Origin: Cupriavidus oxalaticus | Lineage (GTDB): Bacteria > Pseudomonadota > Gammaproteobacteria > Burkholderiales > Burkholderiaceae | Assembly: GCF_016894385.1 (NCBI RefSeq) | Contig: NZ_CP069812.1 | Location: forward strand, 558,001-622,000 | Reading direction: 5' to 3' | DNA: 64,000 bases | In this document: positions 55,817 through 58,898 of the stretch, piece by piece | Layout of the letters: each line of letters begins with the position of its first letter | How positions within the stretch are numbered: the stretch's first letter is position 1 | Made by a program: the position numbers and the translations under genes | The notes under the pieces: generated by a model | The model's database searches: none | The model's input: only the letters and a program-made list of their open reading frames with translations | What the model was told of the DNA's origin: nothing

Positions 55817-56437
55817 TCAGCTGCGGCGCTGCGGCAGGATCGCGTCCAGGAACGCGGTGGCACGGAATTCCAGCTCGGCCACGTAGTCGTCCACGCGGCG
55901 GCGGAAGTAGCGCCAGAAGATCAGCGCCGGGATCGCCACGATCAGGCCGAAGGCGGTGTTGTACAGCGCCACCGAGATGCCGTGCGCGAGCTGTTCCGGG
56001 TTGGCGCCGGTGCCGCCCTGGCTGCCGAAGATCTCGATCATGCCGATCACGGTGCCCAGCAGGCCCATCAGCGGCGCCACCGAGGCGATCGTGCCGAGTG
56101 CGTTCAGGTAGCGCTCCAGCTCATGCGCGACGGCACGGCCGGCTTCCTCGACCACATCCTTGGCGGCGTCGCGCGAGGTGTGCGGTTGCAGCACCACATG
56201 GCGCAGGCCGGCGGCCAGCACGCGGCCGAGCGGCGAATCCTGTTCGAGCGTGTTGACCACTTCCGGCGTGGCGCGGCGCTGCTGCGCGGCGGCCAGCGCT
56301 TCGTCATAGAGCCGGGGCGGCAGCACCTTGCTGCGCTTGAGCGACAGGAAGCGTTCGACGACCAGTGCCAGCGCAAGGACCGAGGCCAGCAACAGCGGCC
56401 AGATCGGCCAGCCGGCCGCTTGAATGATGGAAAACAA
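55817..56437 (-). CDS. exbB: MotA/TolQ/ExbB proton channel family protein
   Basis: Inner-membrane channel subunit of about 206 residues with three spans: SIIQAAGWPIWPLLLASVLALALVVERF, then APLMGLLGTVIGMIEIFGSQGG and VALYNTAFGLIVAIPALIFWRYF. The long cytoplasmic loop between the first two is typical. The start is uncertain. TTG at 56437 gives the family N-terminus MFSIIQAAGWPIWP and has GGGGG five to six bases upstream. An ATG at 56491 would add 18 residues. The open frame continues further into repeat DNA and should be ignored there. Confidence 0.92.
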   Translation of the reverse strand: MFSIIQAAGWPIWPLLLASVLALALVVERFLSLKRSKVLPPRLYDEALAAAQQRRATPEVVNTLEQDSPLGRVLAAGLRHVVLQPHTSRDAAKDVVEEAGRAVAHELERYLNALGTIASVAPLMGLLGTVIGMIEIFGSQGGTGANPEQLAHGISVALYNTAFGLIVAIPALIFWRYFRRRVDDYVAELEFRATAFLDAILPQRRS

Positions 56438-56629
56438 TTGGACCCCCGGGATCACAACCCAATAAAGAAACCCCAACCAGCTGGTCGGCATGCCTTGAGG
56501 CACGTCTGCACGCAGCGCGCTCCGGCATTGCTCTGAAAAATCAGGCGCAACTCTAACCCGCGGCCTGCCGCGCGGCAAGCGACGGCAGGGCTGGCTGTCT
56601 CGGGCGCGCATCGGCGCCGGCCGATGTCG

Positions 56630-56751
56630 CCGGCGGCTTTCCACAGGGTGCAGGGACAGCATTGTGGATCGATTGTGGAAAGCCGCCGGACAAGCGATGC
56701 AAGTGCTTGATTCGCAAAAGGAAGCTTGGGTCTGCTTAAAAATTGTGCAGA
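56630..56751 (+). repeat. DnaA-box-like module A
   Basis: TTCCACA (56639-56645), 16 bp, TTGTGGA (56662-56668), 4 bp, TTGTGGA (56673-56679). The outer elements are part of a perfect 16-bp inverted repeat (56630-56645 with 56674-56689). It is followed by CTTGATTCGCAAAAGG and by the hairpin TCTGC...GCAGA (56731-56735 with 56747-56751) with an A-rich loop. Confidence 0.8.
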
Positions 56752-56853
56752 GCCGCGTGGAAGGCTCGCGACGCTTGCCGCACATCAGGGAAAAACGGCT
56801 GGGATGCAGTTGTAACCCCCTGTCTGGTCGCTGGCGCGCGATGCGAGGCGGTC

Positions 56854-56965
56854 TTCCACATGAGTGCGGGACAGGATTGTGGACCGGTTGTGGACAGGTG
56901 TCGGAGAAGCCACCTAAGTCATTGATTTTAAAGGTTAGGAATGTGATTGCTTAAAAAACAGGCAA
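56854..56965 (+). repeat. DnaA-box-like module B
   Basis: TTCCACA (56854-56860), 16 bp, TTGTGGA (56877-56883), 4 bp, TTGTGGA (56888-56894). The geometry is identical to module A. It is followed by AAGTCATTGATTTTAAAGG and a small dyad TTGC(TT)...(AG)GCAA (56947-56965) with an A-rich loop. Confidence 0.8.
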
Positions 56966-57025
56966 ATGCGCGCTGACGCGTCCCCCAGCGGGGCGGCGGC
57001 GCGTCGCGTGGGTAAACCCGTGCTT

Positions 57026-57137
57026 TTCCACACCGGGCAGGGAGAGGATTGTGGACGGCCTGTGGATAAAGTCTGGAGAGGTAGGCTAACCCATTGATTT
57101 TATGAGGTATGCGAGGGGCTGCCTGGAAATTAGGCAA
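57026..57137 (+). repeat. DnaA-box-like module C with one consensus DnaA box
   Basis: TTCCACA (57026-57032), 16 bp, TTGTGGA (57049-57055), 4 bp, CTGTGGA (57060-57066). The second box extends to TGTGGATAA (57061-57069), the exact consensus DnaA box in reverse. It is followed by CCATTGATTTTATGAGG and the hairpin TGCCT/AGGCA (57120-57124 with 57132-57136). Confidence 0.8.
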
Positions 57138-57269
57138 TCCATCGCTTATCGCCGTTCCACATGATGCCTTGCCGACGCGTGGCATGACATGCCGGCTACG
57201 CCGCCTGGGGCGTGACGCTGACCACGCTTGACCGGCAAGGCCGCGGTAAAGTCGGGTAAACCCCGTACT

Positions 57270-57345
57270 TTATCCAGAGAATCTGTGGATAACTTTGTGA
57301 ACAAGCCCCATCCGTACTCGCTAAGTGGTTGATGCAAAAGAGAAT
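57270..57345 (+). repeat. DnaA-box-like module D with one consensus DnaA box
   Basis: CTGTGGA (57283-57289), 4 bp, TTTGTGA (57294-57300). The first box extends to TGTGGATAA (57284-57292), an exact consensus DnaA box. TTATCCAGA (57270-57278) lies just upstream in inverted orientation. It is followed by GGTTGATGCAAAAGAG. The distance to the inverted element is shorter than in modules A-C. Confidence 0.75.
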
Positions 57346-57512
57346 TAGTTATATTGCCTACTTTTTATTGCGGTCATAAAACTCATAAAAATCAAAGAGT
57401 TGTACGAAACAATGCGGCCTGCGGGGCAGCATCCGGCTATCATCGCTACCCTCTTGACAGACCAGTTATGCTGTGGACATGTCCCATTAACGCCGCTCGA
57501 CCGGCGTGCGCC

Positions 57513-58898
57513 ATGCCCGACCTGACCAGCTTTTCGCGTGACGCTTCCCCCACCGGTTCACGTAGTGGCCGTGAAGTCATTCCTGTCGGCGAGCTGAACC
57601 ACACCATCGCCCGATTGCTGGAGCGCAGCTTCCCGCTGGCCTGGGTGCGCGGCGAGATCTCCAACTTCACCCGTGCGGCCAGCGGCCACTGGTATTTCTC
57701 GCTCAAGGATGCGCGCGCCCAGATCCGCTGCGTGATGTTCCGCGGCCGCAACCAGCATGTCGACTTCCAGCCGCGCGAGGGCGAGGCGGTCGAGGTGCGC
57801 GCCGTGGTCACGATGTACGAGGCGCGTGGCGAACTGCAGCTCGGCGTGGAGGCGATGCGCCGCGCCGGCCTGGGCAACCTGTACGAAGCCTTCCTGCGGC
57901 TGAAGGAAAAGCTGGCGCAGGCCGGGCTGTTCGCCCCCGAGCGCAAGCGGCCGGTGCCGGTGCACCCGCGCACCATCGGCGTCATCACCTCGCTGCAGGC
58001 CGCCGCCCTGCGCGATGTGCTGACCACGCTGCGCCGGCGCGCGCCGCATGTGCCGGTGGTGGTCTACCCGGTACCGGTGCAGGGTGCCGGCGCAGCGCAG
58101 AAGATCGCCGACATGATCGACCTGGCCGATGCGCGCCGCGAGTGCGACGTGCTGATCCTGTGCCGCGGCGGCGGCAGCATCGAAGACCTGTGGTCGTTCA
58201 ATGAAGAAGTGGTGGCGCACGCGATCGCGCGCTGCGCGCTGCCGCTGATTTCCGGGGTGGGCCACGAGACCGACTTCACCATTGCCGATTTCGTTGCCGA
58301 CGTGCGCGCGCCCACGCCGACCGGCGCGGCCGAACTGGTCAGCCCCGACCGTGCGCACCTGCTGGCGCGGACCCTGCGCGGCCGCGACGCGCTGGCGCAG
58401 GCCATGCGCCGTGCGCTGGACCTGCGCGCCCAGCACCTGGACTGGCTGGCGCGGCGCGTGCGCAGCCCGCAGGCGCAACTGCAGGAGCGCCGCGCGCGCG
58501 TCGACAATCTGGCCCGACACTTGCGGTCGGCATTGCGCGACACCGTGGTGTCGCAGCGCCACCGCCAGCAAGTGCTGGCGATGCGCTGGCGCGCATGCCG
58601 GCCCGACACGGCCGCGGCACAGGCGGACCTGGCACGGCTGCGGCAGCGGCTGCAGGCCGCCGCCACGCGCCGCCACGAGCGCGCCGGCCAGCGCCTGGCG
58701 CGCGCCGCCGGTGCGCTGGAGCTGCTGGCGCCGCAGCGCACGCTCGAGCGCGGCTACGCGGTGCTGCTCGACCAGCGCGGACGCGCGCTGCGCTCGCCCA
58801 CCGAGATCCGCCCGGGCAGCGTGGTCGAGGCGCACCTGGCCGAGGGCGTGGCCGACCTGTCGATCGCCGGCGTGCAGGCGAAGCTGGGCGATTTCTGA
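57513..58898 (+). CDS. xseA: Exodeoxyribonuclease VII large subunit
   Basis: Catalytic subunit of exonuclease VII, a single-strand-specific nuclease in mismatch repair and damage tolerance. The 461-residue protein has an N-terminal OB fold ([33 protein letters not shown] in pieces; [22 protein letters not shown]), then the nuclease core with [28 protein letters not shown] and [29 protein letters not shown] in pieces, a long coiled coil, and a C-terminal beta strand segment. I chose the ATG at 57513 ([11 protein letters not shown]), although MLW at 57471 is in frame. The small subunit gene xseB is not in the window. Confidence 0.96.

Follow-up and report, generated by a model that had tools for sequence, protein, structure and literature searches.

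What is the purpose of a chromosomal gap in which motifs resembling the binding box of the initiator DnaA recur in a strictly regular manner? Such a gap occurs in Cupriavidus oxalaticus, where it is bounded by an exbB-type gene on the minus strand and, on the plus strand, by xseA, which we take to be a DNA-repair gene. The window considered here is the whole stretch of 64,000 nucleotides that was analysed, and the gap belongs to C2, the larger of two contigs (3,885,446 bases) of a 6.69-Mb genome. The original prediction distinguished four modules in the gap (A to D) and offered as candidates a DnaA titration or reactivation locus, a secondary origin-like element or a tandem family of structured RNAs. 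This list of functions is partly supported by our analysis: the DARS candidate is well supported by geometry, namely by the core spacing of module D and by IHF and Fis-like sites at fixed offsets, and the RNA and origin candidates are disfavoured. We propose that the gap is probably a DARS-type DnaA-reactivating locus which has been expanded into a tandem array; the binding of DnaA and the exchange of its nucleotide at the array are predicted from sequence.

The description of the modules could be partly confirmed, since A, B and C are built as originally drawn and D had to be corrected. Each of A, B and C has a pair of TTGTGGA-like boxes with starts 11 bp apart and an inverted TTCCACA that ends 16 bp before the first of them, as the box scan and three genome matches agree, so that the core has 17 bp between boxes I and II and 2 bp between boxes II and III (Table 1). 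Direct-repeat operators of OmpR/PhoB type also have an 11-bp spacing, and such an operator was considered as a further candidate. The perfect 16-bp inverted repeat of module A and the exact consensus DnaA box TGTGGATAA in both C and D are present as claimed. Searched in the 6.69-Mb genome with up to three mismatches, the pattern TTCCACA-16-TTGTGGA-4-TTGTGGA gives three matches, all of them in the gap, and the reversed-pattern control gives none. When the gap was simulated 20,000 times with a first-order Markov model, neither a module nor a DARS-core pattern appeared, and TCCACA/TGTGGA hexamers occur in it 12 times against a simulated mean of 0.41 and a maximum of 5. The four-module array is real, and chance is excluded as its source. 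Seven of the nine boxes of A-C differ from TTATNCACA by two or three bases, two of these falling under the scan cut-off. A lone TTCCACA is also seen between C and D (57155-57161), with no partner boxes at module spacing.

Table 1. Features of the exbB-xseA gap and its neighbours (positions in the window)
Feature	Positions	Strand	Basis or remark
exbB-type gene (MotA/TolQ/ExbB, PF01618)	55817..56461	-	upstream neighbour; start approximate
Module A DnaA box I (CTTTCCACA)	56637..56645	+	box scan
Module A spacer element X (CAGGGACAG)	56651..56659	.	5 bp past box I, 3 bp ahead of box II; putative role
Module A DnaA box II	56663..56671	-	box scan
Module A DnaA box III	56674..56682	-	box scan
Module A IHF consensus, exact	56700..56712	-	17 bp past box III
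Module A Fis consensus, exact	56734..56748	.	21 bp past IHF site
Module B DnaA box I	56852..56860	+	box scan
Module B spacer element X (GCGGGACAG)	56866..56874	.	putative role
Module B DnaA box II	56878..56886	-	box scan
Module B DnaA box III	56889..56897	-	box scan
Module B IHF consensus, exact	56915..56927	-	consensus match
Module B Fis-like site, 1 mismatch	56949..56963	.	consensus match
Module C DnaA box I (TTTTCCACA)	57024..57032	+	box scan
Module C spacer element X (CAGGGAGAG)	57038..57046	.	putative role
Module C DnaA box II	57050..57058	-	box scan
Module C DnaA box III (TTATCCACA, exact consensus)	57061..57069	-	box scan
Module C IHF consensus, exact	57087..57099	-	consensus match
Module C Fis-like site, 1 mismatch	57121..57135	.	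consensus match
Module D DnaA box I (TTATCCAGA), DARS-type core	57270..57278	+	deviating box
Module D DnaA box II, exact consensus	57284..57292	-	5 bp past box I
Module D DnaA box III	57296..57304	-	3 bp past box II
Module D IHF-like site, 1 mismatch	57322..57334	-	17 bp past box III
Module D Fis-like site, 1 mismatch	57356..57370	.	consensus match
IHF consensus, exact, +85 bp from D core (after box III)	57390..57402	+	consensus match
Distal DnaA box, core TGTGGA	57472..57480	-	188 bp from D box II, close to xseA start
xseA, exonuclease VII large subunit (PF02601)	57513..58898	+	downstream neighbour

Module D is the one that carries the proposed identity. Its two boxes had been described as lying 11 bp apart and, by implication, as lacking the inverted partner; they start 12 bp apart (57284 and 57296), and an inverted box, TTATCCAGA, precedes them by 5 bp at 57270-57278, so that D reads as box I TTATCCAGA, 5 bp, box II TGTGGATAA, 3 bp, box III TGTGAACAA. 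The spacing of the DARS core is the same in both E. coli sites, with box I opposite to II and III (PMC5742627, in the part available). Scanned in E. coli MG1655, DARS1 (bioD-uvrB) is TTATCCACT, 5 bp, TGTGGATAA, 3 bp, TGTGTATTA, and DARS2 (upstream of mutH) is TTATTCACC, 5 bp, TGTGGATAG, 3 bp, TGTGAAGAA; the orientation and the 5- and 3-bp gaps are those of D. The DARS2 region has a second core-like place 316 bp on, with two mismatches, and we took the first core as DARS2 because it is followed by two IHF sites 3 bp apart, as described in the accessible part of PMC4245941. In the genome of C. oxalaticus the DARS-core pattern at up to three mismatches occurs at D with 0 mismatches and at one other place with 3, and the control pattern gives one match. 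Three boxes with box I opposite to II and III are found in D and in A-C alike, and the 5- and 3-bp gaps in D; in A-C the gaps are 17 and 2 bp, for which reason we term A-C DARS-like and not DARS.

The distance from box I to box III is 17 bp in D and 28 bp in A-C, that is, it has grown by exactly 11 bp, or one helical turn, and the additional space is filled by a conserved GGGACAG-type element. As an exact string it is kept in 40, 38 and 15 of 45 Cupriavidus genomes in modules A, B and C, respectively. A cryptic DnaA box was considered for it and rejected, as comparison by hand gave 2 of 9 matching positions at the 11-bp register and 4 of 9 at a 3-bp gap; given this poor fit we call it a conserved element only.

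The TTGAT block, which had been noticed in every module, is present in all four and is the minus-strand form of the IHF consensus (WATCAANNNNTTR; for Fis the consensus is GNNYANNNNNTRNNC; both from the available text of PMC4585315). It always lies 17 bp after box III, being exact in A-C and having one mismatch in D. We followed this slot in 45 Cupriavidus genomes out of the 60 of the genus searched, own genome included, choosing the modules by their boxes with the IHF site ignored and taking the best match within 60 offsets, with ties assigned to 17. All 135 A-C modules had their best match at exactly 17 bp, 134 of them with at most one mismatch and one with two, and the simulated chance of a match with at most one mismatch is 2.4e-4 per position. 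In D it fell at 17 bp in 41 of 45 and at 18 bp in 4 of 45, with one or two mismatches. At 21 bp beyond the IHF site the Fis consensus is matched with no more than one mismatch in 44/45 modules A, 44/45 B, 38/45 C and 39/45 D, and exactly in 23, 20, 22 and 0 of 45, respectively; the motif is a loose one, which 1.4% of simulated positions satisfy at one mismatch, and its weight rests on the repeated position. What the sequence shows is four three-box groups, each with an IHF and a Fis-like site at fixed offsets.

D is part of a larger unit. Of 45 Cupriavidus loci one was too short; each of the other 44 has a second, exact IHF site at +84/85 and a distal box at 187/188 bp. By hand arithmetic, both are also present in the plus-strand loci scanned from g64, a Ralstonia genus. 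The +85 site is absent from A, B and C in 44 of 44 Cupriavidus loci each. D has an IHF site beside its core, as in the DARS2 subtype, by consensus only (the 17-bp slot and the +84/85 site in 44/44), and the loose Fis consensus, with at most one mismatch, follows the IHF site of the 17-bp slot by 21 bp and precedes the one at +85. The segment 57330-57415, which spans the Fis-like site of D and the +85 IHF site, has 30% GC compared with 68% in the window. The genome encodes IhfA and IhfB, both above NCBIfam cut-offs, and a Fis-family protein above the NF002517 cut-off and below that of the E. coli Fis model (82.3 vs 99).

The A-B and B-C distances vary among genomes in steps. The A-B distance takes the states 118.5, 141, 152, 174, 184, 194, 204.5 and 215, and the B-C distance 160.5, 171, 182.5 and 216, distances within 1 bp having been merged into states to reduce the effect of shared descent. 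The steps are of about 10.5-11 bp (A-B p 0.00035, B-C p 0.005, joint p 0.0013) in a test against uniform values, maximised over periods of 10-11.5 bp and not phylogenetic; by the same test helical phasing was not found for the C-D spacing (p 0.33).

Conservation of the spacings in relatives had been suggested as a check, and it holds within a narrow circle. The exact pattern TCCACA-17-TGTGGA-5-TGTGGA of A-C occurs in 75 of 398 genomes of the family and 3 of its 25 genera, with 0 for the reversed control: 58 of 59 Cupriavidus genomes contain it, 57 of them three times and one twice (the genome without it is 78% complete), as do 16 of 16 of g64 and 1 of 1 of genus g44, and it is present in 0 of 322 genomes of the 22 other genera. 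At up to two mismatches it was found in 58 of 60 Cupriavidus genomes and in none of 40 genomes drawn from other families within the order. All seven g64 genomes examined have three A-C modules (at most one mismatch) and a D whose single mismatch to the pattern falls in box I. In the 17-bp slot, all 21 of these A-C modules match IHF with no more than one mismatch, and D has two.

The DARS core itself is spread much more widely. At up to one mismatch its pattern is found in 140 of 200 genomes of the order and 80 of 108 genera, with 0 for the control among the matches listed. Of 29 such loci besides our own, taken in listing order (L068-L096) and not at random, xseA is the neighbour of 18 (one of them from the same genus), priA of 5 and uup of 2, the remaining 4 being at other places or unassigned. 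The 17 xseA loci of other families, which were chosen for the core, have an IHF site with at most one mismatch at 84/85 bp in 16 cases and, in all 17, a distal TGTGGA at 176-198 bp. Class-wide, 63 of 229 genomes have boxes II-III together with a relaxed match to IHF near +85, again with 0 for the control among the matches listed; of 12 such loci 3 adjoin priA, one is the window and 8 gave no match to the proteins tried.

Counted from the side of the gene, the association is looser. Among 29 xseA loci (7 of g64, 1 of g44 and 21 of other genera or families; L127, a partial match of 28% identity, was omitted from 30) the core within two mismatches is found in only 2 of the 21 others, and many genera of the same family have no full core before xseA. 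Of 80 named xseA loci 78 had enough upstream sequence, and 43 of these have the core within two mismatches in the up to 1.8 kb of upstream sequence scanned (reversed control 0); 13 of the 43 belong to Cupriavidus, Ralstonia or close relatives, and among the others, a few of which have the core 560-1560 bp away, are Nitrosomonas, Sulfuricella, Sideroxydans, Thiobacillus and Massilia. At 83-86 an IHF site (at most one mismatch) accompanies 30 of the 43 cores, 17 of the 30 outside Cupriavidus/Ralstonia. The core was not found in 35 of the 78, including Methylotenera, Polynucleobacter and some Nitrosomonas.

A second place of the DARS core is upstream of priA, in several families (L078, L081, L082, L090, L094 and L177 in the order, L180 and L181 in the class), with hemE on the other side in several. 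Among 22 priA loci the core is present within one mismatch in 4 and within two in 9; boxes II-III are kept in 3 of 5 Cupriavidus priA loci, and before priA of our own genome (L152) they are kept without box I. DARS-type cores were also seen beside uup in two genomes (L069, L072), in the latter with parE on the other side.

In another family, f8, the xseA side carries three (G042, L167) or four (G453, L168) tandem modules of the 5/3 core geometry with partly degenerate boxes. The modules of these two genomes have an IHF site with at most one mismatch in the 17-bp slot, and G536 has one such module; none of the several cores of G570 has IHF in this slot, and the Fis match at +21 fails in the f8 tandem cores (2-6 mismatches). 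Units of DARS type with the standard core have thus been multiplied in tandem at xseA in f8, and modules A-C look like a derived form.

Several other readings of the array have to be weighed. The one that survives best, although we regard it as unlikely, is that DnaA controls transcription of xseA, and perhaps of exbB, the boxes being operators, the distal one close to the xseA promoter, and IHF shaping a promoter loop, with reactivation not being the function. The distal box lies between core and xseA in all 17 other-family loci (chosen for the core), in several other genera of the family (L106, L110, L112, L113) boxes II-III of TGTGGATAACTCTGTG type are retained before xseA and box I is absent, and replication and repair genes are among the ChIP targets of DnaA in E. 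coli, according to the excerpt of PMC11317965. However, a consensus scan of 56440-57560 found no sigma-70-like promoter, which is weak evidence, and an inverted box I at exactly 5 bp together with three modules up to ~870 bp away would be superfluous for simple repression. In E. coli, too, DARS1 and DARS2 are found at promoters, those of uvrB and mutH (PMC5835720, part of the text), so the promoter position of the array is not decisive.

There is a small chance that the locus is datA-like, that is, that IHF-directed oligomers of ATP-DnaA hydrolyse ATP there and switch DnaA off after initiation. E. coli datA also pairs DnaA boxes with an IHF site, and the boxes of A-C are weak and in tandem at 11 bp, as expected of ATP-DnaA oligomers; but D has a DARS core, of which the datA stretch scanned shows none at up to three mismatches. 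The box positions scanned in E. coli datA differ from those of the array. Passive titration, in which the cluster would merely soak up DnaA, seems improbable to us: thirteen boxes (twelve in A-D and the distal one) within ~850 bp would suit it, yet it needs no fixed spacings of 5/3, 17, 21 and 85 bp, no IHF sites and no helical phasing.

A tandem family of structured RNAs is very improbable. The inverted repeats in A and the TGC...GCA palindromes speak for it, and the latter are what is left of the A-rich hairpins described originally: the palindrome is there, is short and fits the loose Fis consensus, but its flanks, the would-be stem extensions, pair at about shuffled level, with scattered exceptions (of 45, the first flanking pair in A 35 vs 26 shuffled and in B 26 vs 18, and others such as one C pair, 30 vs 18). 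Rfam gave no match at gathering thresholds in the whole window, and consistent covariation beyond the boxes, as covarying stems would show, was not found. The toxic small RNAs of Burkholderia were considered and dropped, as there was no Rfam match and no other link. A secondary origin, for which the DnaA boxes beside the AT-rich stretch 57330-57415 could be cited, is just as hard to credit, because dnaA (the only match to the DnaA C-terminal domain, at C2:3882032) and a box cluster near it (about C2:3880178-3880238) are ~620 kb away. The skew goes from slightly positive to slightly negative, where an origin would give a rise, but over the 24 kb profiled this change does not exceed the noise and adds little.

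The DARS-type reading, which we prefer, has its own difficulties: the 17-bp gap and deviating boxes of A-C, the deviating box I, weak 17-bp IHF slot and site order of D, the looseness of the Fis motif and its failure at +21 in f8, the unphased C-D spacing, the Fis-family protein below cut-off and the xseA loci with no core. Relying on the E. coli work (PMC4245941, PMC8682772 and PMC5742627, each in part), we suggest that ADP-DnaA would assemble on boxes I-III of D, with box I facing II and III; that IHF would bend the DNA, possibly helped by a Fis-like protein, and bring the distal box and modules A-C beside the core; and that ADP would then leave DnaA, the released apo-DnaA taking up ATP and firing oriC. 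Modules A-C may serve as extra DnaA-loading or reactivating modules, in phase, which raise or time the output, and replication of the locus, ~620 kb from the dnaA-linked cluster (16% of the contig, if it is a closed circle), would double its dose.

A bolder proposal, which we regard as possible and hold tentatively, has two parts. DARS-type switches may be old and general in beta- and gammaproteobacteria and placed in promoters of repair and restart genes (xseA and priA; uvrB and mutH in E. coli), which would couple the recharging of DnaA to these genes. From such a switch Cupriavidus and Ralstonia, in addition, may have developed a machine of four modules in helical phase whose new core reads box I, 5 bp, GGGACAG element, 3 bp, II, 2 bp, III; IHF would fold it into one superstructure with a graded or timed output of ATP-DnaA. 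Among the matches listed, subscription papers being outside the scope, we found no paper dealing with this locus, nor any on DARS in Cupriavidus, Ralstonia or Burkholderia; the listed work on DnaA recharging sites concerns E. coli and near relatives. A review extends the conserved DARS2 spacing to 'beta- or gamma-proteobacterial' species near E. coli (available part of PMC5742627), and the source it cites speaks, in its available part, of gamma only (PMC4245941). Should Betaproteobacteria, genera with two large replicons among them, possess a conserved counterpart whose geometry can be measured, initiator recycling would thereby be shown to be old; loci with one, three and four modules would provide a natural series for testing how such sites work, and the array would open replication control in the biotechnological Cupriavidus to study.

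Compared with known systems, the pairs II-III recall the low-affinity arrays and double boxes of E. coli oriC, where boxes of the same direction stand 2-3 bp apart (excerpts of PMC11317965 and PMC5742627), and the in vivo preference of E. coli DnaA for box pairs 2 or 3 bp apart (same portion of PMC11317965) fits boxes II-III of all four modules; the Cupriavidus pairs, however, are opposed by a third, inverted box and are remote from dnaA. The closest relatives of D are DARS1 and DARS2, with which it shares, besides the core, a position upstream of a DNA-repair gene, as xseA presumably is. Unlike them, the Cupriavidus array is found at xseA and not at mutH or uvrB, has four tandem modules and two IHF positions, and in A-C has gaps of 17 and 2 bp with a conserved GGGACAG-type element. 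With DARS2 in particular D shares IHF sites, by consensus only, and has, by a loose motif, Fis-like sites near the core, in a different order: core, IHF and Fis in DARS2, and core, Fis-like site and IHF at +85 in D.
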